From Apostichopus japonicus (Eukaryota > Echinodermata > Holothuroidea > Aspidochirotida > Stichopodidae), in assembly GCF_037975245.1 (NCBI RefSeq), contig NC_092583.1:6627764-6691763 (forward strand): 64,000 nt of DNA, read 5' to 3'. Positions 24,645 through 57,000 of the stretch are shown here, in pieces. The notes beneath the pieces are model-generated. The model worked only from the letters and a program-made list of their open reading frames with translations. It was not told where the DNA came from and did no database searches. The first letter of the stretch is position 1. Each line of letters opens with the position of its first letter. A program made the translations under genes and the position numbers.

Positions 24645-24738
24645 AGAAGCTTTGATCGTGCAATTACAGCAACAAGTATCAGATCTGAGTCTTTTCCTCG
24701 GAGAAGAAAGACTAAATCACAAAGCCACAAAGGAGAAG
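24645..24738 (+). CDS. FLACC1: FLACC1 coding exon 6, start of coiled coil
   Basis: Acceptor GGGTAACAG|A. Encodes EALIVQLQQQVSDLSLFLGE..., residues 242-273. This is the first clear heptad pattern and resembles the start of the FLACC1 coil. Donor AAG|GTATTT, phase 0. Confidence 0.82.
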
Positions 24739-25397: not shown

Positions 25398-25529
25398 CAG
25401 GGCCCTCACCAGGCTGTTAATATTAGATATCTTTTCCACCAATCTTGTCGTATTTGTCCTTTCCTTTAGGCAGGCTGTAAATATCAGATTTTTTTTTTTT
25501 TAACCAATCTTGTCGTATTTGTCCTTTAG
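25398..25529 (+). repeat. Tandem duplication of the exon 7 splice acceptor region
   Basis: CAATCTTGTCGTATTTGTCC occurs at about 25440 and again at 25505, each followed by CCTTTAGGCAG. CAGGCTGTTAATATTAGAT (from about 25411) is likewise copied as CAGGCTGTAAATATCAGAT (from about 25471). The upstream acceptor (AG at 25468-25469) lies exactly 60 bases before the real one. Its use would add 20 codons in frame, the last of which is TAG. Confidence 0.85.
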
Positions 25530-25689
25530 GCAGCAGCTGTCATGAACCAGAAACTACAGGAGCTTGATGAGAAGCATGTACAGAGGTTTCAAAAGATGCA
25601 AGAAGATTATGAAGACAAGATGGACGTGACGAGACAGGTCCACGAGAAAGAGAAGGAACACCAGAAAGCAGCAAGTGATATGCAGCTTG
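25530..25689 (+). CDS. FLACC1: FLACC1 coding exon 7
   Basis: Acceptor TTGTCCTTTAG|G. Encodes AAAVMNQKLQELDEKHVQRF..., residues 274-326: a highly charged coiled coil in which Glu/Lys/Gln dominate. Donor CTTG|GTGAGT, phase 1. Confidence 0.85.
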
Positions 25690-26915
25690 GTGAGTCATTG
25701 AATATTATATCAAGAGGTGTTTATTAAACCTCAGATTGTAACTGTATCGTATGTAACGTACTGCTGAGCTGGATGCATGAGAGAGAGAGAGATTGTGACA
25801 CATCAGGTGTTACACAGGTAGATTAAAGCAATAGAACCTAGTTTTTAATCATAGCTGAATATAATTAGGTGGGTTTTCATCTAAGAGTAGTGTGCACTTT
25901 TCAGTGACGGCTGTTTGTTCCAAAATGTTTGCAAACGTGGGCAAAAAACAATTTGTGGTGGGTTGTGAGATTCTTCCTGATGTGGAAAAGTATATGAATA
26001 GTTTTTGGAGCTTGCCGACAGAGGTTGATGAACTCATTCTTTAGCATTTGGTCCGTAAATCCAAGCAAACTGTCATGTACTCTGAGCATTGATTCTGAGG
26101 TGTGGGGATCTGATGGGTCATGGCTCCGTCGTAATGGATGATCTTGGCTTGTGGGCATAAAAGTTTGTGGACTGCCAGTCTAAATGGTCAAAAAGATGTG
26201 TGATATACATTTAGTGAAATTACAAAACACACATTTCTAAAACAAATTGAAGGCATTTTATATCTTGGTGATGTATTTCCCTTCCCCCATCTCTATTGAT
26301 AAAACTGACCAGCCTGTTTTGTTCACACAGTTCTATGATGTCACTTGAATCAGGTAATGATTCCTTCCATTGAAGCCATCAATATAGAAATGTGTGAGGC
26401 CTTATTGATTATAATGCTAAATATTTGTAAACAAAAATGTTTCTCCCAATATTTGCTATCAGTTGCAAAATTTGAATTAATGGATTATGAGAATCTAGTT
26501 GTGAATAGTACCTACGTAAATATGGTTTACAGTACATGTATGTTGCAAATACATAGAAATAAATGGGAAGAAGGAAATATATTTATATTAATTTTATGTA
26601 CATGGTGTATGTGTTGATTATGATCAGTCTTGAGCACAGGAATCACTTCAATGGTAGTGTTAGAACATTCATCTAGAGGAAAACAGTTGACATAAAATTG
26701 CATCACAGTAGCAATGGCCAAAGCTAAGTAGTTGAGCACGCTAATGGATTAAACATTGTCGTAACCCTCACCCTTAGTTGCTACTTTCTCTAGGGAATAA
26801 ATGAACTTTGCAAGATCCAGCAGCCTCCTATATTTTTGAAATTATTAAAAGGAAGTATTTTTTCCCAGTGAAATGAACTGGGTCAGTCTTTTATTGCTGT
26901 GCCTAATAGACTGCC

Positions 26916-27617
26916 TGTAATAAGTTAATTTAGAATCTTCATTTATGTATGCAATGTACCATTGCTGTATACCCTATGGTTTGTATTAAGATCTTCAATG
27001 CCAAGGCAAGGCCTATGCGTAGTCTTTCCATCTCTTCTCTTCCCGAGAGTTTTGGATATCTGTGGTTGTCACGCAATCTAGAGTATGCATTATAACCAGA
27101 AGATTCACATTACACAGTGAAGCTTACACGGCACTTCACAATGATATAATTTAATGTAATAAGTTACTTTAGATATTTATGTATGCAATGTACTACCTTT
27201 GCTGTATACCCTATGGTTTGTAGTAAGATCTTCAATGCCAAGGCAAGGCCTATGTGTAGTCTTTCCATCTCTTCTCTTCCCGAGAGTTTTGAATATCTGT
27301 GGTTGTCACGCAATTTAGAGTATGCATTATAACCAGAAGATTCACATTACACAGTGAAGCTTACATGGCACTTCACAATGATATAATTTAATGTAATAAG
27401 TTACTTTAGATATTTATGTATGCAATGTACTACCTTTGCTGTATACCCTATGGTTTGTATTAAGATCTTCAATGCCAAGGCAAGGCCTATGTGTAGTCTT
27501 TCCATCTCTTCTCGAGAGTTTTGGATATCTGTGGTTGTCACGCAATCTAGAGTATGCATTATAACCAGAAGATTCACATTACACAGTGAAGCTTACACGG
27601 CACTTCACAAAGATATT
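26916..27617 (+). repeat. Three-copy tandem repeat, unit 234-237 bp
   Basis: ATTTATGTATGCAATGTAC opens copies at 26941, 27175 and 27412. Copies are about 95 percent identical by eye, with a small deletion in copy 3 (a CTTCTC segment missing near 27508). It lies in FLACC1 intron 7. The 101-codon open frame through copy 3 is not supported as coding. Confidence 0.9.
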
Positions 27618-29207
27618 AAAGGAAAGTCACCAAAAGTCCAAAGTTTTGTCAGCTGTGATATAGAAACTTTATTACTGCCCTGCCCGCCGAGCACTAATCG
27701 CAAGCTAGATACTTTTATCACGTAAACGACGAGTGGTTAGAGGCATGTAATCCCATGTAAACAGTACACTTTAGATTGCTCACCAACGTATGACAGGATC
27801 ATGTGAAGTGTCTATAGCCTTTCCAAGGGACACATAATACTATAAAACGTGTCGTGACATTGTTGTGATCATATGGTCACAGTTTAGATGTAAAGGTAAT
27901 GTTGAAAGGAACTCAAGGTGATCGGTATTTGTGCCCAAGCTCTATGTCAGGTCAGTTTTCTTAACAAGTACTGTATTTATTATATATTGTTATAAAATAA
28001 TAGCCATATGCTTACTTTAGTTTACAAATACCAGAGAAGACCATTAAAGATCCAGGTTTTTGGTCCCTATAGTGTTATTGGGTGTAGACCTGCAAGTACA
28101 TCAACCTCTACAGTGTTTCCATAAAGAGAATCAATACTTTAATGGAGTCGTTGTTTATATAATCTGTACTGTAAAGAATGTGTTTAAATGCAGTAACATC
28201 GTCCAATCTTAAATTGTTGGAGAAACTCTTGGATGATTAGATCTGTTGGTACAGTGTATATATAGCAAACTGTACAGTACAGCTTAGCTGTGTTCATGGC
28301 TGCTGTAAAAATTATAAGTTGAATGTTATTAGGTTGATATCACACATTTGGATACAATTTTCCAAAGAGTGTCATCTTTTGGTGACAGATGTACAGTACA
28401 GATTCATTGAGATTCAAAGTGAAAAACAGTAATTTGTCTGCAATATCTGCTATGATGGTTGATATAGGTACAACTCCATCTTGGATTCTAGTCATGGTCA
28501 TCAGTAAAACATACACATTATAAGAGAAAAAATATTTAATATTATCTCATCAAACTTGGATGAAAAGTGCACTTCTTGTTTCAGAGAAGAAAAACTAACA
28601 TTGAATACCATGTCCCCACTATTATGGGTATAGTATGCAAATTAACATTGTTTATTCAGTTAGTACATTCATACAGTATATATATACAATAAACTGGCAA
28701 CGTAAGGTCACTTAGTGCTGCTTTTCGATTCAAAGAAGAAGAAAAAACAGAATTAATGTGAACACTGCAACACTAAATTTGTGCATATATATGCATGTAC
28801 AGAAAGCAGTTTTGATATTTTGTCCACACAATTTATAACATTCTCAGTCCATGAAGTTTGTGTTCATATTTTACAGTACTATTCATTATATATTCAACTT
28901 GTATTGCATGTAATAGCACGTTTTGCCTGATTTGCTAAGTTTAACTCAACATATGCACATCCATTGTGTATGTCTCACACGCAACCACTTAGCTACTATA
29001 CAGGTTGCGTCTTACGTATGTCAATCATTAGAAGAGCTAATTGCTCTGTGGGATTGTTTCCATCCACTCAGACATATGAATATTCCTGATTGCTGAAGGA
29101 TTTCGATAATCCATAGAGATTCTGCATGGTTATTAAAATTTGTGCGAGTGTGGTACTTATAAAAATATAAAGCATATATGAAAAGAGGTCACCTGCTTCC
29201 TTTACAG

Positions 29208-29360
29208 CTCGTATGAAAGGTGAACTAGAGTTCCTGCAGGGTGCCTTCGAAGCTTACAAGAAAACATTAGTTCAAGACATGGAAGAAAAATGGAAGAAGA
29301 AAGAGAGAGATATGAAGCATCAATTTCAAGAAGAAATGGATAATGCTCTTCATCAGCAGA
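29208..29360 (+). CDS. FLACC1: FLACC1 coding exon 8
   Basis: Acceptor CTTCCTTTACAG|CT. Encodes ARMKGELEFLQGAFEAYKKT..., residues 327-377, and includes the DMEEKWKKKERDMK run. This is the segment most clearly shared with FLACC1, which has an aromatic residue then DEMEEKW at the same place in the coil. Donor CAGA|GTAAGT, phase 1. Confidence 0.87.
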
Positions 29361-30584
29361 GTAAGTATTTAATATTAACTTTGCTGCCTCTGAGCCGGTC
29401 ATAGAGGGTGCGCAGTGTTCAAAGGTTTCCAGTTCATTCTAGGCACGGTAGAACGAGGGTGCTAAGCTTATGGGGAGACAGGTAAGCTCGTCACTCGTAA
29501 ATATCCAAACCAGTAAGTTTTAGGCTTTTTTAGTAAGATCATCTAAAAGTAATACACTTTTGTGGACAGAATTGTTCATAATCATACTTAAAATGATTCT
29601 CCATACAATGATACAAGCAACTACTGAATTTCTAACCAAATTATTCAACTGAACACTGAGCTCTTATTTATATTTACAACCCTTTGCATGCAAGCCGCAG
29701 TGGATGAAAGTACAGTATCACTTGATCCAATGCACACATCTATAGGTGTTTTCTGAGACTTATTAGATAAAAATTTCCAAAGACTGGTAAAGTGCATCTC
29801 CAAAATTTAATCAAGTGTGTTACAAATACAGATTATGTGGATCACCAAGAATTAATCGAGTGAATGGTATGTCCAAAGAAACTATTCAAGTGTAAGCGAC
29901 AGCCTGTTCTCATCAAGTGTGTTGAACTACAGTATGATAAAGTTCATGTAGATATGATTAGTTACACATTTAACCAATATAAATTCATCGTTGATTCTTT
30001 GTATTTTACGACAAGAAAGTATGTGTGCCTAGTCATGTGTTCCCAATAACTGGTCCAATTTTGCTATTCTTTTGTAATTTTTGGGATTTTGCCTATCATT
30101 TTCTGCAAGCACTCCAAACTTGATTAACAATAGCCATTTTAATAATAGCACAGCATAGCAACTGTTTGTGCAGTAACCAGACTTGTTTTTGCAGTTCTAA
30201 ACCAGAAGTTTAGAAGGAAGCAATTGTTTTTGGTAGGAATAAGGAAAAAGTTGTAGAAATGACAAAAATTGTTTCCATATATATTAGTCTTCTGTACTAT
30301 TCATGTTGTACATTGTGTTGAAAGTACTCAGCCCCTGACCTTTAACAATGTATGTGACCTTGTGCTAATAACTCAACAGTGTAATGATCAAGTCAATTTA
30401 ACTGCATGTATTTGTACTGCATAGGTAGTTTTCAAAGTAGGATTTACTTTTGCACTTGAAATACTTGTGTAAAGACCTTGCTGAGATCAATATGATGGAA
30501 GAGAGTAACGTAGAACTAGAGAAATAATGAGATGCATTTTAAATCAAGGTAGGTATTCACAACGATCAATTCAGATGCAGATTT

Positions 30585-32015
30585 ACTGCATTGTTAGGCA
30601 CAATCAAAACAATGCAACGTTCTAATCTTGTTTACAGTAATAACAATATGTATTGTTAGGCACAATCAAAACAATGCAGCGTTTTAATCTTGTTTACAGT
30701 AATACATGAATCACAATATGTATTGTTAGGCACAATAAAAACAATGCAATGTTTTAATCTTGTTTACAGTAATTCATGAATCACAATATGTATTGTTAGG
30801 CACAATCAAAACAATGCAACGTTCTAATCTTGTTTACAGTAATACAGGAATCACAATATGTATTAATTAGGCACAATCAAAACAATGCAACGTTCTAATC
30901 TTGTTTACAGTAATACAGGAATCACAATATGTATTGTTAGGCACAATAAAAACAATGCAACATTCTAATCTTGTTTACAGTAATACAGGAATCACAATAT
31001 GTATTGTTAGGCACAATAAAAACAATGCAACATTCTAATCTTGTTTACAGTAATACAGGAATCACAATATGTATTGTTAGGCACAATAAAAACAATGCAA
31101 CATTCTAATCTTGTTTACAGTAATACAGGAATCACAATATGTATTGTTAGGCACAATAAAAACAATGCAACATTCTAATCTTGTTTACAGTAATACAGGA
31201 ATCACAATAAAAACAATGCAACGTTCTAATCTTGTTTACAGTAATACATGAATCACAATAAAAACAATGCAACATTCTAATCTTGTTTACAGTAATACAG
31301 GAATCACAATATGTATTGTTAGGCACAATAAAAACAATGCAACATTCTAATCTTGTTTACAGTAATACAGGAATCACAATATGTATTGTTAGGCACAATA
31401 AAAACAATGCAACATTCTAATCTTGTTTACAGTAATACAGAAATCACAATAAAAACAATGCAACGTTCTAATCTTGTTTACAGTAAAACAGGAATCACAA
31501 TATGTATTGTTAGGCACAATAAAAACAATGCAACATTCTAATCTTGTTTACAGTAATACAGGAATCACAATATGTATTGTTAGGCACAATAAAAACAATT
31601 CAACATTCTAATCTTGTTTACAGTAATACAGGAATCACAATATGTATTGTTAGGCACAATAAAAACAATGCAACATTCTAATCTTGTTTACAGTAATACA
31701 GGAATCACAATAAAAACAATGCAACGTTCTAATCTTGTTTACAGTAATACATGAATCACAATAAAAACAATGCAACGTTCTAATCTTGTTTACAGTAATA
31801 CATGAATCACAATAAAAACAATGCAACGTTCTAATCTTGTTTACAGTAATACAGGAATCACAATAAAAACAATGCAACGTTCTAATCTTGTTTACAGTAA
31901 TACAGGAATCACAATAAAAACAATGCAACGTTCTAATCTTGTTTACAGTAATACATGAATCACAATAAAAACAATGCAACGTTCTAATCTTGTTTACAGT
32001 AGTACATGAATCATA
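30585..32015 (+). repeat. Minisatellite with two unit lengths (70 and 51 bp), FLACC1 intron 8
   Basis: More than twenty units share ACAATGCAACATTCTAATC and CTTGTTTACAGTAATACAGG. Long units are 70 bp. Short units are 51 bp and lack the 19 bases between two CACAAT copies. Left-hand units are mainly long, and the right end (31690-32000) is wholly short. Because 51 is a multiple of three, the short block yields a 132-codon minus-strand frame with a 17-residue period; I do not consider it a gene. Confidence 0.95.
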
Positions 32016-33949
32016 ATATATGATAATGGCAAAAAGAATATATATCATATACTGTACATGGAAAGATTCAGTGCAGATGACAAAATGTAGATCATTAATG
32101 TTAACCTAAGGCTAGACAGGCTGAACAATACTTGAGATATTGATTACTGGATACTGATTACTGGATATGCACGGTTGCCAAGGTAATGATCAATTGCTGC
32201 AGGTCATCAAAGTAGTCTGTAGCGCTAATAACTAATCACAAATATCTCAGCTCGGGTCAAAAGGTCAAATACAGCATGGAGAATACAGTTCTGTATCATC
32301 AAGAAGTTAAGAATGGATGTTCGCTTAAAATAACAAGGATCAATAATAATATGATAATCATAATGTCACCTTATTTCTGGAGAATCATGGTATGTTAGCT
32401 TGATTGCATGCTAATTGATAGTAAATCCTACAGCAACATTATCATGTACACTACTAGTGTTGCTGTCACAGTTATACTCATTACTGATACATTAATTAAC
32501 AAGTGTAATTTGTAAATCTACTTAATATAGTATCTGGCATGTGTTAGTACCAGACAACAGCTATTCCTCCTCATCAGAGACAAGGTGGCCATGGAGACCA
32601 CCTAACTTATCAGGTTGTACTCCATACTGCTGTGCCTATTAGAGCCACAGTACCATGAAACCGAATGGTTTGTCATAGCGACTGGTTGTGTTTGCAGTCT
32701 AAAATACTCTAACACTGAAATACTCACTGTAAGTAAATGTTTATGTACAGTGCTGCATGAATGCGCTAACATTCAGACACTTTAAACCTTTCAGTTTCCA
32801 AATGAATGTATCACACTTACCTGAATAGCCCATGACGCCTGTAACACTTAGCCTATATATAGTCTAGCCAATGTGATTTGAAAATCATACGTGGGTGTTT
32901 TGTTATTGCCATTAACAATAATAATCTTCTCCAAAATGGAAACTTGGAAATGAAAATGATGAAAATTAATTGTTGAATGACAAATCAGATAAAAATATAT
33001 AAAATGCATCAGCTTCACATGGACAATTTACAAGAAAAGCAATCTTTCTTTTTATGTATGTTTTTCAGTACCCCTTTAATAGTTTCGTACACAAAGTAGA
33101 TCAAATCAATGTATGAGTGCTGCCTCTCTAAGACCTCTCTATAAAGAAAGATGTTTTTCTAGTTTATGAAATGAAGATTTTCTTGCAAAATTATGTTGTT
33201 GTATCTGTGTCTACTGAAGACTTATTCTACAGCATTTTAACCAGTCAATTACTATAATAGTTTAAAATTCAGGAGCTTGTGAAAATAGGGACATGTATGT
33301 TATTATGTGCTGTGACGAATGATGTAATCCAACCACTGTCTTGCAACCGTATGTCCATATGTTTGGTGATTTATCCAATGTAACCAGACTTTTATAATTT
33401 TTGCATCATGAATGCTAATTCTGACGTGAAAAGAAATAAACTCTCCCTTTAACCCTCAGAGGCAGGTGCAGTTTTTTTAATTATAAAACATCTTCACATT
33501 TCATCATGATGATAAACCTCTAAGGGCTTTTTCTCTCTGCTTTCACTGCCAAATGATAGCTTTTTATAGAAATTTAATATATAAATTCATAACAAATTGC
33601 CTCACAGTTGCCTCCTACAATTTTGTTTTGAAGCTTGAATAGGCACCGGTCAGCATTGATACTGTCTCGCGATTGTTTAGAAGTATATTGTCTAGTTTAG
33701 CGTTAAAGTTTAATAGTTGGAAAGAACGATTCACTAGCGTCTATGTGTGTGTGTGTGTGTCATGTTAAGAGTTTAGATCAAATTAGAGGAAAGGTGCTTT
33801 GCAGAATATTACAGTTTAAGGAAGAAATATAAACTTGTAATGTACTCCAAATTAATGGTGCTAAGCTTTATCAATCTTGATGATTTGTTGGCTTTAGGTT
33901 ACAATCATCTCATATGATGCTTTAACCAAGATATTTTTTATTCCTTGCC

Positions 33950-34470
33950 TTAGGCAGAAGGAATCTATGTGATGGTGATGAGGTGGGTGCGTGTGTGCAT
34001 GTGTGTATGTGATACTTGCTTGTAAACACAATAACTCACAAAGTTTATGGTGGATTAACTTCATACTTGGTTAGTGAGTCTGTCATATTGAGTACAAGTA
34101 CCATATTCTTTTCTGTGAAGTTCAATGGTCATTTGAGGTCAACAGAGGTCAAAGTCTGAATACTTTGTAAACAGGATAACTCAAAAGGTACATCTACGTT
34201 GAACTTCATACGTGGTATACAGATGCAGCTTGGTGACTACAAAACCCTATTGAAATTGGTGTAGGTCAAAGGTCATTTGCAGTCAACATTTTAGTCAAAG
34301 TCTGAAAATCTTGTAAACATGGTAACTCAAGAAGTACATCTTTCCTGACCTTCATACTTAGTGTGTAGATCCAGCTTGGTGAGTTCTTTGCAAGAACCCT
34401 ATGGAAACCCTATTCATATTAAACAGGTGTCAAAGTTTGAAAACCTTTTAACGTGATACAGTAACTCCCA
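33950..34470 (+). repeat. Dispersed repeat with DR1 and DR4 motifs (FLACC1 intron 8)
   Basis: Same family as the repeat in intron 1: a CCTTAGGCAGAAGG start, a TG-rich stretch, a CTTGTAAACACAATAACTC block, then GGTCA-rich units. A perfect DR1 lies at 34263-34275 and a perfect DR4 (AGGTCA, ACAG, AGGTCA) at 34136-34151. Confidence 0.75.
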
Positions 34471-35306
34471 AGTTAAAGCTGCAATTAATCTGTGAATTCC
34501 CCAATGCTATGATTTTATTTTGGTGAACATAGTTTGATCAAATTTTATAGTTCAGTTTAGCTTTTTGAAGGGGCTGTAAAGGTCTTCAGCAAAACATACA
34601 GTCATCCAGGAAATGAAATCTACTTCAAAGAGCTGTAAGTCTGCTTTGAACACACTCAAATGGCTCTTTACATCAGTTCTCACCCTCTGAGCTTCAAGGG
34701 GTCCATACAGTAGGTATCTCAAGTGGCACACAAATTGGCTCCAGGGGTCTACAGGTTATATCAAATGGTCTCAAACTTGACTGCATTCCCTGTGATTTTA
34801 TACTAGATGACTTTGGCAGTAGGTTGTGAAAATGTTTCAAAGTGTATGAACAATGCCATGTAACTTGGTAGCAGAGCTGATTTGGTAGCTCAAAATTGGT
34901 AAAAGATGTTGTCCTTTTATTCATACATCTATGTGTCTTTATTTCACATAGGAAGACAGGTCTTTCTGAGTATTGAAACATTTTGGAAGAAAAATTCTAT
35001 AAGTTTGCAAAATCCTTAACAGTAAATGAAATGGTTGATGCCCACAAGAGAGTGCTACAAAGAAGAGCTGGAAATCTCTGATCTTTTCTGGTTCTCACTT
35101 TATTCTTGGATGAATTTATCTCACTTCTCTAGATTAATTAGATAGTTATTATGAACTTTCAGCAAATTATATGGCAAAGAATCACAAAGCTAACTGGCTT
35201 TCTGGTTACAAAATATCTCACAAAACATTTTTCTGTTTGCTTTAAAATGTAAGTTCAATTCTCCATAAACTTAAAAGATATTTTCTTTGATTTCAATTTT
35301 TTCAAG

Positions 35307-35410
35307 GGACTGAACTGTTGGAACAGAAAAATGTAGAGAAAAAAGCCATGAGTAGAGAGTTTCAGAAACAGATGCAGGGTTTGGTGAAGGAACACAAGAA
35401 AGATATTGAG
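35307..35410 (+). CDS. FLACC1: FLACC1 coding exon 9
   Basis: Acceptor CAATTTTTTCAAG|GG. Encodes RTELLEQKNVEKKAM..., ending HKKDIE, residues 378-412. Coiled coil. Donor GAG|GTAAAG, phase 0. A 123-codon minus-strand frame overlapping this exon is a shadow. Confidence 0.8.
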
Positions 35411-37483
35411 GTAAAGTAATATAAATGGATATATGTGCTCTGGTAATGTACTCTTTCATATGGAAAAGTTGTGTTTCATAATACTGAAAGTACTGCAATG
35501 AATAACAGTTGATTGAAGTCAATCTATAAATGTTGGTAAAGTTAAATATCTCTGCATTAAATTGGTACCTTCTGGTAAGTATTATCAATATCCAAGCAGT
35601 ATGAATAATCAAGTTAAAAAAAAATAATAGAAAATATCGCATGAATAATGATAAATTTGATTGGAATTAAAGGATGTTGTATGACCTTTATTCCAAGTCA
35701 GCACTAAATGTACTGTATTTGTTAATTCTACAATTGTGCTGTTTCAAAGTGTTTAAATATTTTTATATTTAATGTTTCGATAGGAAGTCTGTCTGTTAGG
35801 GAAACGGACAGTAAATTTGATTGGTGATGATGGTAAAATCTTGAATAAGATTAAAAATCTATGACACTGAAGATGGAGGTACAGAGCGAAATGATTAGTT
35901 TTCTTGTTGTGTTGTTTGATGATCTGTGCTTACGTAGTACATCATATGTGAAACATCTATATTGTGAGAAAACAGAAGAGGAAATCAGGAGAGGCAGGTG
36001 GATGTCAGCAATAGGTTGCTAAACAGAAGGACACTAGGTCTGAATTCTTGTATTATAAAACAAGTGACCCTCAGCAACCAATCATTATCTGCACTCTGTA
36101 AGGTTATTGACGTTGACTCAATGCGTCATGTGAGGTACATGGGTTTCTCAAGGCTCTTGGATGTAGATGGTAAAGGTTTTTATGTTTTCCGTAGATGTGA
36201 GAAGATTTATTTTACATAAATGTTGAAGACTTCCAGGCTATTTCAACACCTGTTTAATGTGAAAAAAAGGAATGGACGGACATCTTAAGGATACTTTCAA
36301 AGATTATGTTGGGCAAGACGTAACACTTAACTTTTTCTATTAAAATCTGTGTCTTCATGTCAAAGAATAATGTCATCTATTTAGTTCTGGTTTTAATCAT
36401 TGTCTTCCTAATATTAATCAAGTGTTAATATTCATTAACTAATGGGTACTGTGAGAGTCTACACAATATAACAAGATGTCATAAGTTTTAAGGAATGTTA
36501 TGTGATGGGGAGGAGTTCTTTATTTAATAATGACAAATGAGTCAAGCTTTTATAATTTGGGTTGGAGGGGGAGGTGGGTAATATTGGCCTAGATGGCACA
36601 TAAACACAATGCTAAGCAGGCACATGTATGTATAAATGTGAAGATATCTGAAAAGTTTGTAATTTACACTTCATATAGAGAGGTCATCCAGTTTACATGT
36701 TACTGTATGCCTATTTTGAGTGTTTAAGCATAAATTCAAAGACCAAAAGGGAAACAGTGGATCTCTGCTGGACAAAAAAATCTGACTTAAATATTTCAGC
36801 CAGGGTTTGAACTCATGACGTCCTAGATTTCATTCACTCATTGCTATAATTTCTATCTTTATACTTTTGTTAATTTTACAATTGACATGCAATAGACACA
36901 TGTTTAAATAGTCTTACACATATAGAGATAAACCTTGAGGCTCAAAAGACATAATTTGTCTAAATTATGATCTTGGAAGTCTGTAGAATAATTTTGAAGT
37001 ATCATTTTCTGTATGTAATGAATAAGTTAACAAAGTCCGGTTTTGTATTAAAGACCCAGTTAAGAATGATTTTAATTTCAGGTGTAATTGCCATCCCATA
37101 TTTCCTTGTTAAATTAAGAGTTTATTTTGTATCTTTATGATTGTAGGTTGGAATCTGTCCTATAATATGTGTTAACTACATTGCTATTGTTCATAATAGT
37201 CCACTAAATGTCACTTGGAGATGTCTTTTCAATCTGTGTATATTTTATTCAGCGTTTCTATAACATATGCTTTTAAGAAATAAATCTTATGAAAATTGGC
37301 ATGCAAATTTAGTTGGCATATGACTTCATTTGCATACTGTACAATGCACAAAGAATTTCTGCCAAACAACAAATGTTGAACTTCTGACCTAGCTACAGAA
37401 TAATGGCCATGTCTACTGTTACAGTTACCACTGTAGCTTTGAAAGCCAAAGTTGACACCTGATTCATATGTTGTCATCCTCAG

Positions 37484-37645
37484 GCAATGGTGAAGAAGTT
37501 TTCCTCAGCTTCATCAGATGTCGAGAACCTTAGAAGGGCCTTAGATCAATTGAAAGCTGTAAGAGAGGAACTGGATCAGACCATTGAGAAGCTAGCTCTG
37601 ACTGATGAGATTCTACAGGACACGAGACAACACTTACAGGAAGCT
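37484..37645 (+). CDS. FLACC1: FLACC1 coding exon 10
   Basis: Acceptor GTCATCCTCAG|G. Encodes 54 residues (413-466), phase 0 at both ends. The LKAVREELDQTIEKLALTDE segment has leucine-rich heptads and resembles the equivalent FLACC1 block. Donor GCT|GTGAGT. Confidence 0.85.
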
Positions 37646-38344
37646 GTGAGTTGTGTAATATTTTATGACAGCATTTATACAGGCTTTTGCTTGCACTTGC
37701 TTGTTCACAAGAGGTTTTGAGAGTTACACAAGAGTTTTCATTCATGTAGATTTTAAAAAAATGGAAGCTTTTTCAATTAAAGTCATGACACATAGCTGAT
37801 CCCTTTAATAGCAGAACAGTGATAAGACCAAATAGCAAGAAACACTTGGCAAGTTAAGAATTTAACGTTCCTTCCCGTAGATGAGTCTCGGTGTAAGAAC
37901 AATGTTATTTTAACTGTGTTGGTAATATTTATTTATCAAGTAATGACTCAGCTCTCCTTGTTTCTTTTCTGTTCCCCATATGTCCTTAAAAAAATCCTAA
38001 TAGAATAAACAGTAAACAAACAATAAACGAGTGGAAACTCTGAATGTCTACATAAAACATTTCTATTTCCTTCTGGTAGCCTCTAGAGTTATTTTCCTCA
38101 ATCATAAATCAACTCTTGATATTGACATTGGGTAGCTACTTCAAACCCTTCTCTTGTCAGTGCAACATTAAGCTATTGTTTAACAAAAACTATAGTGTGA
38201 CCTTTTTTTTGAATAATGTCCCTCCAAATTGAATTTTCCTTGAGAAAACAAAATTACCTCTTAGACAATCTGATATGAGCCTAGAGAACCAAAAGGCTTA
38301 GTTGTTCTTTGCAATGTTTCATAGCAGAACATCAAAAGGAACAC

Positions 38345-38620
38345 TGCACTCAAGATTTCCAAGTTTTGACTGCAAATGACCTTTGATTTCTACTATAATA
38401 ATAAAGTTCTGGTATTCATTACGATGAGTGTGCACACTAAGTATGAAGTATATTACAGCTCTACTTTGCAGTAAATTCTGTTTACAAGGTGTGTAGGATC
38501 CGTAGGCATAGCATGAACTTCATCCAACCTTTACTCTTTGATTTACCTTCTTTACTCAGTTGCAGACTTTGACCTCTGACTTCAAATGACCTTTGACCTT
38601 CTACATAAAACAATAGGATT
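38345..38620 (-). repeat. Inverted copy of the DR1-bearing dispersed repeat (FLACC1 intron 10)
   Basis: On the minus strand this reads GGTCAAAGGTCATTTGAAG, then AGAGGTCAAAGTCTGC, then an ACTTCATACTTAGTG block, as in the other copies. It contains a perfect DR1 (TGACCTTTGACCT on the plus strand, 38587-38599). Confidence 0.7.
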
Positions 38621-39717
38621 ATTGTACTAAGTTTGATTCATATGCCATGTATGAAATTTTGCCTTCAAAGTTTTCAAGATTCCATTGTTTTCAACATATG
38701 AATTCTGGTGATCTCAATTAACCTTTCACCTCTACCAAAGAAATTCATCACTATTGCTTCCAAACATACAAGTATAAATAGGTAATCAACTATAAAACTT
38801 TGTCACCTGTGATCTAACTACTATCACACTGTTATTGACATCCTCACAGCCTTTTCCTTCATGAAACAGTAACTTATCTGCCTCATTGTCTGAATATTTT
38901 GAGAGCTGGGTATAGTAAGGTACCTTGAAATGATTTACAAGATGCTTTTAGCATGCTAACATTGAGAGGCACTACTGATTTGACTTTCAAATTTCACTCA
39001 ATCTCTCAATTTAAAATGCTTTGGCCTTTTGAATTTGAACATTGGTCAGAGTTAGAATAAATACTGACACATTCATCAGAGAAGTTTGTAGAGACTTATG
39101 TACAGTCCCTTTACATTATTTATCAGTTTTACTGCTTCAAGTGAGCCTAGATTGATAATAATAACCAAATCTTATGTTTATTCCAATTTGACAAATTAAT
39201 TTGGTTTTTCAAACCGAGAGGGACATTCCATCTCACCTTATTTGATGTCCAAATTGATAAAAATTATACCAGAAAGCTTTTCAGAAATACAAAAACATTT
39301 CTATTCAAATCATATGGTTAGCTCATTTACATATCATGATTATTCCTTGTTGCAAACCATTGAAAAAATATGATTTTAAAGATATGATTGAGAAGGCCTC
39401 ACTACTATACAATATGTGAAAATTAGTGAGTCAGGTAGAGAATTTTAGCATATTATGCTGATTAATTTACACCCTTGTTGCAAACTGATCAAAGATATGA
39501 TTAAAATGGCCTCTGTAATACAATGAGTGAAACACATAAAGGTCCTCTCTTTCAACAGCATACTAATGAGTCTGAATAATGGCTTTCAATACACTGAGTT
39601 TTGTTTACAAACATTGTGATTATCTAATGTGTATATGGAGGACCAATAAATGAAAAAGTAAACTGTCATTAATCTTCATCCTTTTCCTTTTTTTTCTCAA
39701 AAATATTTTCTGCATAG

Positions 39718-39927
39718 AATTTAAAAATCTTGAACTACCAAGACAACTTTCAGAACAAAGTTGATGAGGTGGATGATAAATACAAAGAGAGGATACATCA
39801 GCTGATGCAGGACAACACTGAACTAAGGAAGAGATACATGATGAAATGTGACGAGTTATTCAATGAAAAATCTAACACAGAATTTAAAAGAGTGGAAAAA
39901 GTCACAAGTACAAAAGAAATGTTACAG
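39718..39927 (+). CDS. FLACC1: FLACC1 coding exon 11, end of coiled coil
   Basis: Acceptor TTTTCTGCATAG|A. Encodes 70 residues (467-536), phase 0 at both ends. VDEVDDKYKERIHQLMQDN followed by ELRKRYMMKCDEL aligns with the last coil segment of FLACC1. Donor CAG|GTGAGT is nearly ideal. Confidence 0.87.
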
Positions 39928-40243
39928 GTGAGTTTGTAGCTTGTTTTACATAATGTTTTGTACAAACTGAAACTATTGTACATCTGGGATTACTCTTTTC
40001 AAACATTTTAGACAATTACAGCAAGCCCAAAATGTTTTATTTTATTTATTTTTAAGTTTGGCGAAACGTGAAAAGTCATAACAGTACCATGTGTGGATCA
40101 CTAGTATGATACAATTTCATCTGTAATTATTGAAGAGATCTTTTGGACATATTTTTGTAGTTTCAGGTCAGATTAATTGATTTGAGAAGCTTGTGTTTTC
40201 TAAAGCTCTGTATCGTGTGGCCAAACTGCACAAGTAGAACCTT

Positions 40244-40318
40244 TAACTAGTCGATTGCCCAGTGCATTTGTATGCAATGGAAGCTTTAACTAGTCGATTG
40301 CCCAGTGCATTTTTATGC
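40244..40318 (+). repeat. Two-copy 43-bp tandem duplication
   Basis: TTTAACTAGTCGATTGCCCA occurs at about 40242 and again 43 bases later. It immediately precedes the 41-bp minisatellite in FLACC1 intron 11. Confidence 0.85.
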
Positions 40319-40380
40319 AAGTTCTCCTGGCATGTTCACATGCTTGTGAGATCTTTAACACGATAGTGTTACTTTAATTC

Positions 40381-41047
40381 AATGTGTCTTAAACTTTTGC
40401 AGATTATATTACTTTGGACTTAATGTGTCTTAAACTTTTGCAGATTATATTACTTTGGACTTAATGTGTCTTAAACTTTTGCAGATTATATTACTTTGGA
40501 CTTAATGTGTCTTAAACTTTTGCAGATTATATTACTTTGAACTTAATGTGTCTTAAACTTTGCAGATTATATTACTTTGAACTTAATGTGTCTTAAACTT
40601 TGCAGATTATATTACTTTGAACTTAATGTGTCTTAAACTTTTGCAGATTATATTACTTTGAACTTAATGTGTCTTAAACTTTGCAGATAATATCACTTTG
40701 AACTTAATGTGTCTTAAACTTTGTAGATTATATTACTTTGAACTTAATGTGTCTTAAACTTTTGCAGATTATATTTCTTTGGACTTAAAGAGTCTTAAAC
40801 TTTTGCAGATTATATTACTTTGAACTTAATGTGTCTTAAACTTTGCAGATTATATTACTTTGAACTTAATGTGTCTTAAACTTTTGCAGATTATATTACT
40901 TTGGACTTTATGTGTCTTAAACTTTTGCAGATTATATTACTTTGGACTTTATGTGTCTTAAACTTTTGCAGATTATATTACTTTGGACTTAATGTGTCTT
41001 AAACTTTTGCAGATTATATTACTTTGGACTTTATGTGTCTTAAACTT
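40381..41047 (+). repeat. 41-bp minisatellite, each unit carrying a 3' splice-site-like motif
   Basis: About sixteen units of 40-41 bp. Each reads AATGTGTCTTAAACTTTTGC then AGATTATATTACTTTGGACTT, with small variants (TTTTG/TTTG, GGACTT/GAACTT). Every unit keeps a pyrimidine stretch ending in AG; one has GTAG instead of GCAG. It lies in FLACC1 intron 11, 780 bases before the real exon 12 acceptor. Confidence 0.95.
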
Positions 41048-41829
41048 GCAAGTAAAGTAGTAATATTTTTTACAATGATCCCCAATACTGCAGATCTGTT
41101 AGAATTCTTAAAAGATGGAAAATTTTGTTTAATCACAGAAACATGTTCAAGCAAACACTAAGGCCTCATCTTAGACATATAAATGTCAATAGCACAATAC
41201 CCTGTTATAGAAATTTTATTCATTTATGCAGAAAATTGCAAATGAGGTACAATGTTTCACAACTGCTGTAAATCAGTTATTTGAATTCAACTTTTAGTTT
41301 GTTTTGGCAGCAGCAGATGTTTCTTTTGTTTGAGTTATTACTGTAAATGTTACAATAAGTATGTTACTTCCAAGTAATTAGTATTTTGAGATAACAGCTC
41401 AAACCCCCTCCTCCCTAACCCTCGCCACCACCCAACCCTTTGAAGTGCTCCTGTGAGCATTAGCAGGTTGATTTTATAACTTTTTTTAGTCTATTGATAT
41501 GAAATTCCATGTTTATAATGCATTAACATATAGATGAAATATCACACCTTTGTTTTTGAATATTTTATGACTGAAAATATCTTGTGATTGCTATAATTAT
41601 TTTGCTTGTCTCCAATTTCACTCATGAACATGCTGTCATTTTAAGCCAGCAGGAGGCCTTTTCTTTTGGAACTTAACATTCTTCTCCATCGTATGTTCCA
41701 CGCATTTTATCCTCACATTGCTTTGACTTACACGTGTCACTGCAAAATTGAGAAAAGCCCCAAGACAATCTACAGTATGAAAGGTTGGAATAAAATCATT
41801 TTTTCTTGTCAAAACTCTTTTGATTGCAG

Positions 41830-42135
41830 ATGATAATTCATGCCAAGAATCGCTCTAACGTCAACATGGCAGTCGGTGACAGTGAAACTATCAATTTGAA
41901 GCAACCACTGATTAGACCTTTCAGTGCTCCAATCACAAGAGGAGAAACAAGATCTGCTTTTATAAATGCTGGGGAAGCAGAGCATTATAATGACGATAGC
42001 CAATCAGGAGACGACTTATCCGAGGGTAGAGGGAGACCACACACAACGGTCGGAGGTGGTCGTAAATTAAACAGGCAATCCTTGGTGGAAAGATCCTTTA
42101 GAGCAATAAGAGACTCATCCCTACAATCACTATAA
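41830..42135 (+). CDS. FLACC1: FLACC1 coding exon 12, C-terminal tail and stop
   Basis: Acceptor CTTTTGATTGCAG|A, phase 0. Encodes residues 537-637 and the stop at 42133-42135. The tail is polar and not coiled. It contains LIRPFSAPITRGE and a glycine/arginine patch (EGRGRPH...GGGRK). As far as I recall vertebrate FLACC1 ends soon after the coil, so this tail may be a lineage-specific extension. A possible polyadenylation signal AATAAA is at 43063-43068. Confidence 0.83.
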   Translation: MIIHAKNRSNVNMAVGDSETINLKQPLIRPFSAPITRGETRSAFINAGEAEHYNDDSQSGDDLSEGRGRPHTTVGGGRKLNRQSLVERSFRAIRDSSLQSL

Positions 42136-42262: not shown

Positions 42263-45200
42263 GTTGGTGATAAATCTTTTCCAGAAAACACATCATGCAT
42301 TTTAATCCTTGGAGACTTTTTTAGTGATATAAGGAATATTTTATACTATTGATTAACTTTAATTTTTTATTTAATTTTTTATATGCAAAATATGATAGGA
42401 TAAGTACGTATTACGAACAATTAGCAGGTAGCTATAACAAAAAGCCCTGCAGTTCAACTACAGCAAAGTACTAATATCTATCTCAAGTCACACCAAAGCT
42501 CTATAAATTGTAACAGCATGTATGCCAGTACAGACCAAAGGCCATGTTACAGGGCCATCCATCAATGAGTTATGCCAAGCTGCACATTATAACACCATTG
42601 GCAGATGCAATTTATTTCATTGAAGTGATTTGCCTCATTTGTGATTGGTTATTGTGTATATAGAGAGGTATATACAGTTAATTTCCAGTGAAGTTAATTT
42701 AAATAAGTAAATGAATAATGTAAAATGGGATTGGAACCAGTGAACTCTGTAGTTTATTTAAAAACAATCCTTGTAAAAGGTTTAGCCTTGATAGCTGAAA
42801 CCTACTCTGTCCACTTTACTGTGTCCACAGGTCTGTCTGTTTCTTCACAGGTTTTATCTTTTTCAACTTTCTTTTTACTTCCAATACGACTGGATAATCA
42901 CGATTGCTTCACAGTTACAAGTTGTAAATTTGTGATAAACCCTCTAAGAGTTCCAGTTTGAAGAGCAGGCTGTAGAATGACAAGTGTATTTAACCTTGAC
43001 CACTCTAAGCTCTGCTGATCTAGACAGCTTGTAATGTGAAACACTTTATAACTGATAAAAGGAATAAATTTTTTCTTAGAGACCAATTTAGAATGCAAGT
43101 CCGTTTACTCCAGGAGGTGATAAAAGGTGTGATTAGTTGGAATACTCGATCTAGAATAAGAAGATATTGGAGGACAGAGTTTCAGGTTTGCCAGAGCTTA
43201 TTACCATAAAACATTTTATTTAAGAACAGAGGTATAGGAAATAACTTGTGCCTGCTGTTAACAGTAATTCCTTAAAGTGGAACAGGAAAGAAAATACATT
43301 TCTTTTTCATATGTACTTTGTACGTTATTAACTGTAGAACCAGATTGTGGTGGTAATTAATCTCTGTTTATAGAGATGCTAATCGACTTAATTATGCAAG
43401 AATGAATTTGTCAGTATCCAGTATGTCTTTCATTTAAAAGTATCTATTTCTTTTCTTGGATCTTGAAATTATGAATATTTTAAATAGATTTTTATCAAAC
43501 AAATGGTCACTTTTTATTAAATTAATTTTGGGAAAAGCAAAAGCATTTTAATACTTTTAGCCCCCCCCCCCCTTATTTAAAAAAAATCTGTTTATCATTA
43601 CCAATTTTGTATTACAATGTGACATGTTTGTTACTGTTGCTTCAGTCACTGCAAGAATACTTCCCTTTGTGGGCCTGCAAGTGAAAATTATCTTAAACAT
43701 AATACCAAATAGTAGTAGAAATATTCTAGCGAAATATATAAGTGCTAAATAAATAGAGACCTGCAAATGAGGTGTAAATTTTCATGAATTTTGACCTGTG
43801 AGGCAAAAATTATATTTTTCTATTAATTTTTTGCTCTGTTGTTATTTTTTTACTTCTTTGTTTGATTTAACTACAGTCATGCTGTATTGGTTTGGTCCAG
43901 GGAAATAGAGCTTAAAGTTTTACACATATATTTTAAGAGGAATCATTATCGTTTTATGACATATAGATTTGATAAATAAAAGTCCTTTTAGAATGGAAAC
44001 TCTCCAATCAAAGTGACATCATACAGTATGTTCAGGTATGGATTCTTAATTTGAGCAGGTAGTGTTATTTTGTTTAAATGATATCAAAACTTGCAAGCTG
44101 GTACGTATTTAATTCTATAAGCTATAACCTCAGTAATTATTTCTTCAAATTAGTCATTTTACCATTATATTAGGTAAGTCCCTATAAACCCTGACTTTCC
44201 AACTACACAATAAAATTTAAGGTAACTATAAGCACAACCTTGTGTGAAGACATACTGTTCTGTAATTATGTTTAATTCTCAAGTTGAACATTTTTAGCTG
44301 ATTATTATAATATAATATAATATAATATAAATAATTTTAACAGATTACAATAGCTGTAAGATTTTGAAGTGGAGTTTAATTGACAAGAATTTGTAAAGAT
44401 CAGATATCAATCTAGTATTTTCCTTCTCTGTGTTGTTGACTCAGATTTCATACACAAACTACAAAAATTTGTCACTGGACATATTTCTCTTTCATCTGGT
44501 TTATACTTGTATTTATGTAAGATGAATATATTAATTTGGTAGATTCATTTGAAAATTACTTGAATTTGTAATATCTTTGTAGGATTCTTTGAGAGAGATT
44601 TTGCAGGCCTTTACCCTTATTCATAGTTTTTTTTGGTGAATGCTAACCTGGGCATCTCTAGCATCTTTAAAGACCATATCATATATATGAGGTGCCTCCC
44701 GAATAGATTACATAATTGTGGTTAAGGAAATATTAAGAAGACAGAGACAATTTTTACAACATCCTTTAATGGTCCTCACCACAGGAAGGATGAAAAGTGA
44801 CAGTGAATGAAGCACTGTACCTGCTCATCCAACTGTGTAAAGATTGTCATGAAACTGTCAAGTATTTATTCGCCTCAAGCAAAACCAGCTAACTAAATGA
44901 TTTGCTAACAAGGGCCTCATTCTCTTTATAAACCATATACTGCAGGTAATATTCTTTGGGGTACCAAACTCATAGAGTGATCCGGAAACCTAATGTAAAT
45001 ACATAGCACTAGGTTTGACCTTTCTATACTGGAAAGCTTGAAGATTGTGTAAACATATATAAGAAAAAAGGGAAATATATCCACGGACATTCTTCACTAC
45101 GCAGCATATTAGACTGGGGGGTAAAAATCTGAAAAAGGCATCAATATTGTCTCTGCATATGATAAAACAGTAAAGCCATCATCAAAGATCTTTCTCACTC

Positions 45201-49928: not shown

Positions 49929-50041
49929 TTAAAAGAATTTTACACCTTCGTTACCATCGAAAGAGATCAGTTCAGCCTTCTGTTGTCTCTGTAATGTCTT
50001 CAAAGCTCTTGATAATAACCAGTCTTCAAGTCCAGAAAATT
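49929..50041 (-). CDS. VPS25: VPS25 coding exon 6 (last)
   Basis: Acceptor GTGCTTTCAG|AA. Encodes FSGLEDWLLSRALKTLQRQQ and then KAELISFDGNEGVKFF, followed by TAA at 49929-49931. This is the C-terminal part of the second winged helix, and the GVKFF ending is diagnostic. Confidence 0.95.
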
Positions 50042-51263: not shown

Positions 51264-51339
51264 CTTCTCCTTTTGTGTCATTTCCATTTGCAATTTCATA
51301 TAATGTACAAACTGTATTCTTCATTCCATGTTTTATTGC
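51264..51339 (-). CDS. VPS25: VPS25 coding exon 5
   Basis: Acceptor GCATTTTTCAG|G, phase 0. Encodes AIKHGMKNTVCTLYEIANGN and then DTKGE. The TVCTLYEI segment matches the conserved FTLYEL of the second winged helix. Donor GAAG|GTAGGT, phase 1. Confidence 0.95.
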
Positions 51340-51534: not shown

Positions 51535-52569
51535 TTGGTCTCCAAACTCTCCCCACTCAGCAAGTTGTAACTCACCCATTTACATATAAGGTCTCCCCAC
51601 TCAGCAGGTAGTACCTCACCCATTTATATAAAAGGTCTCCCCACTCAGCAGGTTGTATCTCACCCATTTATATATAAGGTCTCTCCACTCAGCAGGTGGT
51701 AACTCACCCATTTATATATAAGGTCTCCCCACTTAGCAGGTGGTTACTCACCCATTTATATATAAGGTCTGCCCACTCAGGTTGTAACTCACCCATTCAT
51801 ATATAAGGTCTCCCCACTCAGCAGGTTGTAACTCACCCACTTATATATAAGGTCTCCCCACTCAGCAGTGAGTAACTCACCCATTTATATATAAGGTCTC
51901 CCCACTCAGCTGGGGGTAACTCACCCATTTATATATAAGGTCTCCCCACTCAGCAGGTGGTAACTCACCCATTTATATATAAGGTCTCCCCACTCAGCAG
52001 GTGGTAACTCACCCATTTTTATATAAGGTCTCCCCACTCAGCAGGGGGTAACTCACCCATTTATATATAAGCCTCCCCATCCAGCCCTTTTATACTCACC
52101 CATTTATATATAGGGTCTCCCCACTCAGCAGGGGGTAACTCACCCATTTATATATAAGGTCTCCCCACTCAGATGGGGGTAACTTACCCATTTATATATA
52201 AGGTCTCCCCACTCAGCAGGTGGTAACTCACCCATTTTTATATAAGGTCTCTCCACTCAGCTGGGGGTAACTCACCATTTATATATAAGCCTCCCCATCC
52301 AGCCCTTTTATACTCACCCATTTATATATAGGGTCTCCCCACTCAGCAGGGGGTAACTCACCCATTTATATATAAGGTCTCCCCACTCAGATGGGGGTAA
52401 CTTACCCATTTATATATAAGGTCTCCCCACTCAGCAGGTGGTAACTCACCCATTTATATATAAGGTCTCCCCACTCAGCTGGTGGTAACTCACCCATTTA
52501 TATATAAGGTCTCCCCACTCAGCTGGTGGTAACTCACCCATTTATATATAAGGTCTCCCCACTCAGCTG
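51535..52569 (-). repeat. 44-bp minisatellite made of VPS25 exon 4 end plus its 5' splice site
   Basis: On the minus strand each unit reads CTGAGTGGGGAGACCTTAT, then ATATAAATGG, then the intron start GTGAGTTACCACC. I count 23 junctions. The one at 52538/52537 is the real exon 4 donor and the other 22 fill almost all of intron 4. All 23 keep GTGAG or GTAAG at the junction even where neighbouring bases vary. A ~218-bp block of five units is itself duplicated (starts at 52071 and 52289). Confidence 0.93.
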
Positions 52570-52626
52570 GTGTCCTCCACATTACCATACACCTCGTCTT
52601 GGTTTTGTCTGACCATTCTATATTAC
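52538..52626 (-). CDS. VPS25: VPS25 coding exon 4
   Basis: Acceptor ATCTTGCAG|GT. Encodes NIEWSDKTKTRCMVMWRTP and then AEWGDLIYKW, residues 84-113. The WRxPxEWGxLIYxW signature of VPS25 is intact. Donor TGG|GTGAGT, phase 0. The last ~31 bases of this exon are the template of the minisatellite that follows. Confidence 0.96.
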
Positions 52627-53823: not shown

Positions 53824-53877
53824 CTTTTGCACTCAGGGCATCCAGTATCTTGGTTACTTCTTCTTCAGATAATTTTC
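53824..53877 (-). CDS. VPS25: VPS25 coding exon 3 (54 bases)
   Basis: Acceptor TTGGTATTCAG|GA. Encodes KLSEEEVTKILDALSAK, flanked by split Arg and Gly codons, residues 66-83. It matches the helix of the first winged-helix domain that precedes the GN-EW motif. Donor AAAG|GTGAGA, phase 1. Confidence 0.93.
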
Positions 53878-54024: not shown

Positions 54025-54690
54025 AGCAAAGATCCCACAGACCACACCAAATTAATAAAAAGCAAGACCAATGCAGAACACATAAGAAAAAGTAAGGAAC
54101 ATACAATCCACACCATCTTAAACAAAGAAAGGTCCATATAGACCACACCACCTTAAACACAGAAATATACAAAAAGACTACCCCATCTTCAACACAGAAA
54201 TATACATATATAGACCACACCATCTTAAACACAGAAATATACATATAGACTACACCATCTTAAATGAAGAAAGGTCCATATAGACCACACCATCTTAAAC
54301 ACAGAAATGTCCATATAGACCACACCATCTTAAACACAGAAATATACATATACACTACACCATCTTAAATGAAGAAAGGGCCATACAGACTACATCATTT
54401 TAAATGAAGAAAGGTCCATACAGATCACACTGTCTCAAACAAAGAAAGGTCCATATAGACCACACCATCTTAAATGGAGAAAGGTCCATACAAACAACAC
54501 CATCTTGAACAAAGAAGGACCATACAGACCACACTGTCTTAAACAACACCAAGAAAATAAAGATCATAGCACCTTCCAAGAAACAAGGATCATACACCCC
54601 ACATTAGCTGCAAAACAGACCCCACCATCTTCAAAGGAACAAGAACAACACAGACTACATCACCTTTACAGACACAAAGCCCATACGACC
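54025..54690 (-). repeat. ~35-bp minisatellite in VPS25 intron 2
   Basis: Units on the plus strand read TATAGACCACACCATCTTAA then ACACAGAAATATACA, with frequent variants (AATGAAGAAAGGTCCA in place of the AGAAATATACA half). The core is regular from 54100 to 54545 and the flanks are degenerate. Confidence 0.88.
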
Positions 54691-54719
54691 ACAAAGAAGA
54701 ACCTATTTGACAAGGATAC

Positions 54720-54865
54720 TCTGTATTTTGCTGTTATTGAAGATAGGGCTGCTAACTGCCTCTTTGACATCTAGGGTATAAATCTTGTGATGCTTGTGAT
54801 ATGCCAGGACAAGATCACACCAGGCTGTAACTTGTTTTTTCTGTGTCTCTAAATTAGGCTGCAGC
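54720..54865 (-). CDS. VPS25: VPS25 coding exon 2
   Basis: Acceptor TTTCTGTTCTCAG|G. The first base completes Thr17. Encodes LQPNLETQKKQVTAWCDLVL and continues to SSPIFNNSKIQ, residues 17-65. This is the core of the first winged-helix domain. Donor CAGA|GTATCC, phase 1; it is weaker than the others at +3 to +6, but the phase and homology fix it. Confidence 0.95.
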
Positions 54866-56310
54866 CTGAGAACAGAAAAAAAAAATGTGCAAAATATTAT
54901 AGATACAATCATACAAGTTCATGCAGAGAACATGCGATTCAATTTTACTGTAGTTACTAACATTGATGTATATTAATTGAGTATGACACAATGACCTTGC
55001 TGATGCAAGGTCAAATGCTGAAGAATTCTTCTGTGTGTTCTGTACTATGTGTTCTACAACAGAAAATCCCCTTCAGTATTTGTCTTGAAACCTTAAATCA
55101 TACCAAAGATAAAGCAACAACAAGACAGCTCACACCAACATGATTTGCAAAGAGTTTACAGATTTTCACTTGTCAAAGGTCACAAGTGGAAGATAGATGC
55201 TTTTTCAACCTGCAATTTTCATTGTGGAAAAGATCGACTTGTAAAAGTGGCATTTCATTTTGCCACTCTTGGTGAAGCATTTAAATTAGACTACCTCTAG
55301 CAGGGGGCTGTGTCAGTCTGCCATGGAAAATGTACTCTTTCCGCCATATAGAAGAATGGCCATTCCCCCATGGCATAAAGCACTTATTGTATATGCACTG
55401 TATATTGCTTAATTTACTTCACTCTATCTAGGCCCTCAAAATCCACAAACTCGGTCATTTAAATCAACAATCCGAATTGGTCCTTTTAAGAAACAGTCAG
55501 CCTAATTTAATTTGATTTATTCAACCAACTATTAATTACATATTTGAAGACAGTGTATCGACTCTTACGAACTTACAATTTAAACTATTGAATCAACCTG
55601 TACATTAAAGACTGTGTATCAATTCCCCAAATTTTGTTTAACTTCAATTCAGTCTATCCAGCGAACTGTCACATTTGAAGATGGGGTACCCATACTGGAA
55701 AGTCAACCTTTCACACAAAGATCTTTGGCATATGGAAATGTACGCCAATAAATTGGCGTACGGCGTACACTACTGCCCCAAGGAAAAGTACGACAGTTGG
55801 CGTATCGCGTAAGCGTGGAGGAAAATTCAGCCGCAACAGTGCAAGTGACGCAACATGGTTCAGACCATCGAGTTTAATAAATCTGGAGAAACTTTCACAC
55901 AATAAATACGCGCGTACCATGCATGGAGGGTCATGTGATGTGTTCCAGGGTGGTACTCATATTACTATCCCCATTACACATGATGATTTCACCCAAATTT
56001 TCATTACATGAAAACCTCCAAATATACAATTACAGATATAAGTTATATGGTCCGGAAAGTGCCATTTCCTGCAATCTGGGAGGCATTATTGACCAAAATT
56101 TTTTGGGTACGCTCCGCGCCAACTGATGGTGGCGCTCCACTTAGATAGTGTGGTGTACAAATACAGAACAAAACCACATCCACCTTGGCGTATTTCTTTG
56201 GTGTATGTTAAAAGTACTTTCCAGAATGGTGGTGTACATATCCTTCCACGTGATTCAAAGAAAGTTTCACCAATACACCAGGGGAAATTCCATTCTTAAA
56301 ACGTATTTTT

Positions 56311-56950: not shown

Positions 56951-57000
56951 GTGAAGAAGGGTGGAAATTCGTACTGCCACGGCCACTCAAATTGGGCCAT
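56951..57000 (-). CDS. VPS25: VPS25 coding exon 1
   Basis: Start ATG (57000-56998) in a strong context, ACAATGG. Encodes MAQFEWPWQYEFPPFF plus two bases of Thr17. Donor AC|GTGAGT, phase 2. The FEWPWQY...PPFF signature is diagnostic of VPS25. Confidence 0.95.

Follow-up and report, generated by a model that had tools for sequence, protein, structure and literature searches.

Known minisatellites at exon-intron junctions

Tandem repeats that contain a real splice donor are an established kind of element in human genes, and the array in intron 4 of the VPS25 gene of Apostichopus japonicus fits this kind. In ABCA7 the VNTR of intron 18 begins with the donor of exon 18, which forms its first two bases. 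According to PMC5954066, its unit is 25 bp long, the hg19 reference holds 23.7 copies and people carry about 12 to 427 units, and the VNTR is tied to Alzheimer risk in humans. Splicing from the second donor keeps one unit in the mRNA, which is out of frame and introduces a premature stop (2 +/- 1%; PMC5954066). This one-unit isoform is described there as subject to nonsense-mediated decay (NMD), and transcripts with premature stops as rising with cycloheximide. With a longer array exon 19 skipping goes up and expression goes down; one-unit retention is unchanged by array length and, according to the authors, is not the cause of the expression loss (PMC5954066). The same paper gives 14 +/- 6% for a cryptic acceptor of exon 18 and 12-45%, depending on tissue, for exon 19 skipping; in 90% of BA10 cases these forms together outnumber the canonical one (PMC5954066).

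Three further human examples are described more briefly. A 31-bp VNTR in CBS, c.1444_1467+7(16_21), is numbered across the exon end in PMC2630376, and is listed as exon 13-intron 13, with raised homocysteine, in PMC1395315. By this notation 24 coding and 7 intron bases are repeated 16-21 times. In IFI6 (6-16) two downstream repeat units act as donors (PMC4526556, excerpt), and the minisatellite paper by Turri et al. 1995 is cited, as seen in their excerpts, in PMC2572611, PMC2915984 and PMC3618361. Finally, CBS 844ins68 is one extra copy of the intron 7/exon 8 junction (PMC2630376, same portion).

The VPS25 array resembles ABCA7 in that the first unit holds the real donor of the upstream exon and that retention of one unit shifts the frame and adds a premature stop. 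The ABCA7 unit, however, starts from the GT on and includes 0 exon bases in its 25 bp, whereas the VPS25 unit of 44 bp includes 29-35. The ABCA7 array is polymorphic over its range of about 12 to 427 units, whereas the VPS25 array is known from one assembly. In repeating exon bases VPS25 is like CBS and unlike ABCA7, and the make-up of the CBS unit, as its notation gives it, is much like that of the VPS25 unit, although gene and unit are different. IFI6 shares with VPS25, going by the title of Turri et al., a minisatellite that gives multiple splice donors in one transcript; the IFI6 decoy units yield three mRNA species, whereas the VPS25 decoy products are all predicted to be truncated. CBS 844ins68 likewise involves a choice between near-identical sites, but from its excerpted description it is a single duplication at the other intron end where the more distal site is used. 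Among the literature matches listed, we found no junction minisatellite from an echinoderm, and a printed account of the VPS25 array was not found among those listed from the open-licence literature.

The VPS25 gene and the array across its exon 4 donor

The window analysed here is a 64-kb stretch of DNA with 35% GC and 0 N. Its minus strand encodes a complete six-exon VPS25 gene, of which exons 2-6 were joined by script and exon 1 by hand. The exons and the features of the array are as follows.

56951..57000, minus strand: VPS25 exon 1, coding part, MAQFEWPWQYEFPPFF + AC, which joined to exon 2 gives the annotated protein
54720..54865, minus strand: VPS25 exon 2, from exon joining
53824..53877, minus strand: VPS25 exon 3, from exon joining
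52538..52626, minus strand: VPS25 exon 4, 89 nt, with a Pfam ESCRT-II match; the final 29-35 nt contribute the exon bases of the repeat unit
51264..51339, minus strand: VPS25 exon 5, 76 nt and not a multiple of 3, from exon joining, with a Pfam ESCRT-II match
49929..50041, minus strand: VPS25 exon 6, coding part with stop, from exon joining
51548..52572, minus strand: 44-bp minisatellite identified by TRF, 23 donor-bearing copies and a partial 24th
52533..52537, minus strand: donor 1, GTGAG, the exon 4 donor, needed for the annotated protein
51571..52493, minus strand: 22 decoy donors, GTGAG or GTAAG, the GTRAG sites in the array
52048..52493, minus strand: 5-unit block of period 218, twice in tandem (227/228 aligned, 3 mismatches, 1 gap)

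At these exons AG ends the acceptors and GT starts the donors. The predicted protein is identical to the annotated VPS25-like protein of A. japonicus (100%, 175/175 aa), and the next-best match reached 82% among the best 120 of 437. PDB chain 3cuq_C (VPS25) matched residues 3-175 with an E-value of 4.7e-65. Pfam ESCRT-II was matched by exon 4 (E 1.1e-10) and by exon 5 (E 0.00032, below the curated cut-off). Similarity to the ESCRT-II subunit thus covers the full length and places the product in VPS25. The part of the protein encoded by the repeat is ordinary among 14 aligned deuterostome proteins; its stretch AEWGDLIYKW has one different residue in the nearest relative (P0002). Conversion of exon 4 by the array was considered, and the 14 aligned proteins gave no sign of it. 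The A. japonicus annotation may be based on protein similarity alone.

TRF described the array with a period of 44 bp, 23.4 copies, 88% matches and a score of 1589. On the gene strand it begins inside exon 4 (CACCAGCTGAG...), crosses the donor at 52537 and enters intron 4, and its periodicity ends at 51548 after a partial copy. TRF and exon joining agree with the sequence-only reading, which had placed an array in intron 4 behind exon 4 of VPS25. That reading had also counted 23 donors in series, 22 of them extra, and indeed 23/23 GTRAG sites are intact and follow one another on the minus strand, their first bases running from 52537, at the end of exon 4, down to 51575. They are spaced by 44 bases in 19 of the 22 intervals, the remaining three being 42, 43 and 41. 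Since the array takes in an authentic 5' splice site, with donor-like sequence in 23/23 units, we classify it as a junction minisatellite. The unit had been divided into about 31 exon and about 13 intron bases; this anatomy stands, but the measured exon share is 29 bases with certainty and up to 35 with CACCAG, which matches both sides. The 29 exon bases before donor 1 recur largely unchanged before each of donors 2-23, and the 9-mers at the 23 donors are distributed as TGGGTGAGT (18), TGGGTAAGT (2), ATGGTGAGT (1), TGGGTGAGA (1) and TGGGTGAGG (1). Donor 1 is among the 18 with the common 9-mer, in keeping with the earlier description of near-identical competing donors.

After manual merging of rows, and without a 30-base row at 44306-44335, arrays of period at least 5 make up 9.9% of the window, and one of ten tested VPS25 splice junctions lies in such an array. 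Random placement would lead us to expect about one junction in this tiny sample, and the location of the array alone is therefore unsurprising. A second minisatellite of 35 bp and 12.5 copies lies in VPS25 intron 2 (54108-54546) and touches no junction. On the plus strand a putative coiled-coil gene extends over about 24562-42135; its joined pieces weakly match Pfam BORCS7 (E 0.0007, 20.1 bits, below the curated cut-off of 27.3). An intron of this coiled-coil-like gene holds a 41-bp array of 16.7 copies (40369-41047, plus strand) with 16 acceptor-like CTTT(n)G[CT]AG motifs, that is, decoy acceptors and not donors; an apparent exon with its acceptor ending at 41829 follows about 780 bp downstream. 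At 30590-32018, units of 51/70 bp carry 23 TTGTTTACAG motifs, acceptor-like on the plus strand.

Donor choice and the products of decoy use

For the frame check exons 2-6 were joined by script for each of the 23 donors in turn, and the full reading frame was obtained from donor 1 only. Exon 4 measures 89 nt via donor 1 and 1051 nt via donor 23. As the sequence-only reading had proposed, splicing from donor 2 lengthens the mRNA by 44 nt and puts it out of frame, and a stop follows shortly after the start of exon 5 (...YINGQ*). With donors 3-23 the reading frame closes within the array, on a TGA created at donor 2. Some decoys add a multiple of three bases, which makes no difference given the early stop. 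The premature stops of all 22 decoy products lie 72-993 nt upstream of the exon 5-6 junction. By the usual rule NMD acts on stops that precede the last junction by more than about 50-55 nt, and all 22 decoy products are therefore NMD candidates.

The 129-aa donor-2 product, used as a query, matched 85 proteins with a top identity of 92%. This top match is the normal VPS25-like protein and the only one of the 85 named as A. japonicus. A decoy isoform, for which a match near 100% would be expected, was absent from these 85 proteins; NMD products are rare in protein sets. One ORF from a 1116-base contig (P0167) was considered as a decoy product (88% over 44% of the query) and rejected, since it reads intron 1 and exon 2. 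It spans these at about 54700-55260 on the minus strand, with W at stop codons of the window frame, as would result from decoding TGA as W, and it further departs from the window in some other residues and by a frame shift at a T run. It is probably genomic DNA from another A. japonicus sample.

We consider it likely that the array is a tolerated, still-changing junction minisatellite in which donor 1 is used and minor leakage is cleared by putative NMD. The spliceosome would mostly take donor 1 because exon 4, measured from its acceptor, is shortest with this donor and because this donor would be transcribed first; a small fraction would use donor 2 or later ones, and the resulting mRNAs with premature stops would go to NMD. 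Such a clean-up is suggested by the frame arithmetic together with the ABCA7 precedent. By the same analogy, the extent of missplicing at ABCA7 may count against an orderly use of donor 1 in VPS25.

The energy and folding models give donor 1 no clear advantage in U1 pairing or in accessibility. A stronger donor 1 was rejected, since its estimated U1 duplex energy of -10.4 is shared by 15/23 donors and three donors do better (-11.5). A more open donor 1 was not clearly supported either, its accessibility rank being mixed (2/23 in the shortest folding span and 22/23 in the two longer spans). The two GTAAGT sites pointed out previously are present, but they are not stronger than the common donor (-10.3 vs -10.4 kcal/mol as a duplex-energy estimate). 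The weakest array donor has -9.2, and all array donors exceed the donor of VPS25 exon 2 at 54720 on the minus strand (AGA/GTATCC), which is weak with -4.0.

The candidates left to account for the choice of donor 1 are its position and the unique 5' portion of exon 4, and exon definition combined with the order of transcription is likely to lie behind this choice. Multiple U1 occupancy is said by Eperon and colleagues to tend to favour intron-proximal sites, a preference that would run opposite to donor 1 in VPS25. In PMC5389562 multiple U1 occupancy affects 5' site choice without compromising efficiency, and PMC5585400 reports that, when SRSF1 is bound immediately before two donors in competition, the intron-distal donor is suppressed. 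Both reports count against a positional choice of donor 1. A natural contest among 23 donors that is settled by position alone, with the most upstream site winning and array length acting as a dial for VPS25 dose across animals, appears to us rather improbable.

An output control of VPS25 by NMD is a possible function on prediction. Here a regulated share of decoy transcripts destroyed by NMD would set the VPS25 dose and would be tuned by copy number. Every decoy does produce an NMD-type stop, and longer ABCA7 arrays are associated with reduced expression and increased skipping of the following exon; however, the VPS25 donors show no sign of selection, and one-unit retention in ABCA7 is independent of array length and excluded by its authors as the cause of the expression loss. 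We regard such a control as unlikely. Under the preferred reading of a tolerated array, long alleles may still reduce VPS25 output.

The unused donors might also be bound by U1 and so aid definition of exon 4 or block early polyadenylation, which would make the array beneficial. Recruitment of U2AF and U2 to an upstream acceptor increases when a 5' splice site lies downstream of it (PMC8724738), and an AATAAA is found at 51337 on the minus strand, at the start of exon 5 and about 240 nt past the last decoy donor. This site is unremarkable, however, among the 5 AATAAA and 5 ATTAAA of the scanned gene region, and the donor columns are conserved no more than expected. A U1 platform of this kind seems very improbable.

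Constraint, history and meaning of the array

In the sequence-only reading the preserved donors pointed to constraint, and a comparison of the GT positions with the other unit positions was suggested. For such a column test we aligned the 22 donor-to-donor units to their consensus and omitted the piece after donor 23; 20 units were used for the column count, as units 6 and 11 were dropped for their complex block change. Among 44 columns 18 were variable and 26 invariant, with 22 distinct column-state variants in the 20 units. Invariance of both GT columns is expected by chance with P = 0.34 and that of the four core donor columns G1 T2 A4 G5 with P = 0.11, in a test of little power, so that the comparison lends the proposed constraint no support. 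Selection on the donors is not evidenced by their intactness, though at this low power it is not disproved either. In the exon-derived part, codon reading indicated that 8/9 variant columns alter an amino acid or create a stop, so that coding constraint is not apparent in the copies.

Purifying selection that preserves all donors, for example if mutated donors were worse than intact ones, could draw on the 23/23 intact donors and on an excess of variants in a 10-column spacer (12/22 distinct variants with P = 0.001 when this window is the one chosen; 10/20 and P = 0.007 with a 3-base deletion counted once). A spacer more variable than the rest was rejected, however, as the contrast drops to P = 0.12 once any 10-column window is allowed, and the GT and core columns gave the non-significant values above. 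We hold such selection to be extremely unlikely. Under the preferred reading the decoys would be tolerated and would evolve neutrally.

The array also retains traces of its history. Each copy of the 5-unit block contains one GTAAGT donor (first bases 52405 and 52187) and the complex change, and since the two GTAAGT sites occupy corresponding positions of the duplicated block they probably represent one mutation. Private variants were absent from the 13 exon-proximal units (the first 15 minus two block units) and numbered 12 in units 16-22, with the split at unit 15 chosen after the fact; they correlated with position over 20 non-independent units (Spearman 0.73, P = 0.0002). The part next to the exon gives the impression of recent copying or homogenisation and the distal part that of greater age, from which we infer that the array is still active beside the real exon. 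Its copy number probably differs among animals. The minisatellite probably began when 44 bp spanning the exon 4 donor were duplicated in tandem, and unequal exchange or slippage would then have enlarged it. The similarity of ACCAGCTGAG between exon and intron, invoked previously for the origin, is a circular argument because the intronic ACCAGCTGAG itself belongs to the second repeat copy.

The near-identical 5-unit block, present twice, is also a possible place for a misjoin, and the array is known from one assembly only; an assembly artefact would mean that the true array is missing or much shorter. A 75-aa ORF across the distal array end, used in a protein search for a second sample, gave one candidate and no match, although non-coding ORFs are often missing from protein sets. 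Against an artefact, the units differ by many variants, including private ones in the distal third, and the matching A. japonicus protein is located on an 18.2-Mb contig. HiFi reads of 14.7 kb, the mean length reported for an assembly of this species that is not necessarily the source of the window (contig N50 17.2 Mb; PMC10344927, excerpt), would moreover span an array of 1 kb. An artefact is thus very unlikely in our view.

Donor choice is usually studied with a few engineered sites. VPS25 offers 23 donors in near-identical surroundings, exon bases included, in which strength is nearly constant and mainly position differs, and the array is in this respect a natural splicing experiment more than a novel kind of element. 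It extends to an echinoderm a type of repeat that is tied in humans to Alzheimer risk (ABCA7) and homocysteine (CBS), and suggests that more such junctions may exist in minisatellite-rich genomes.
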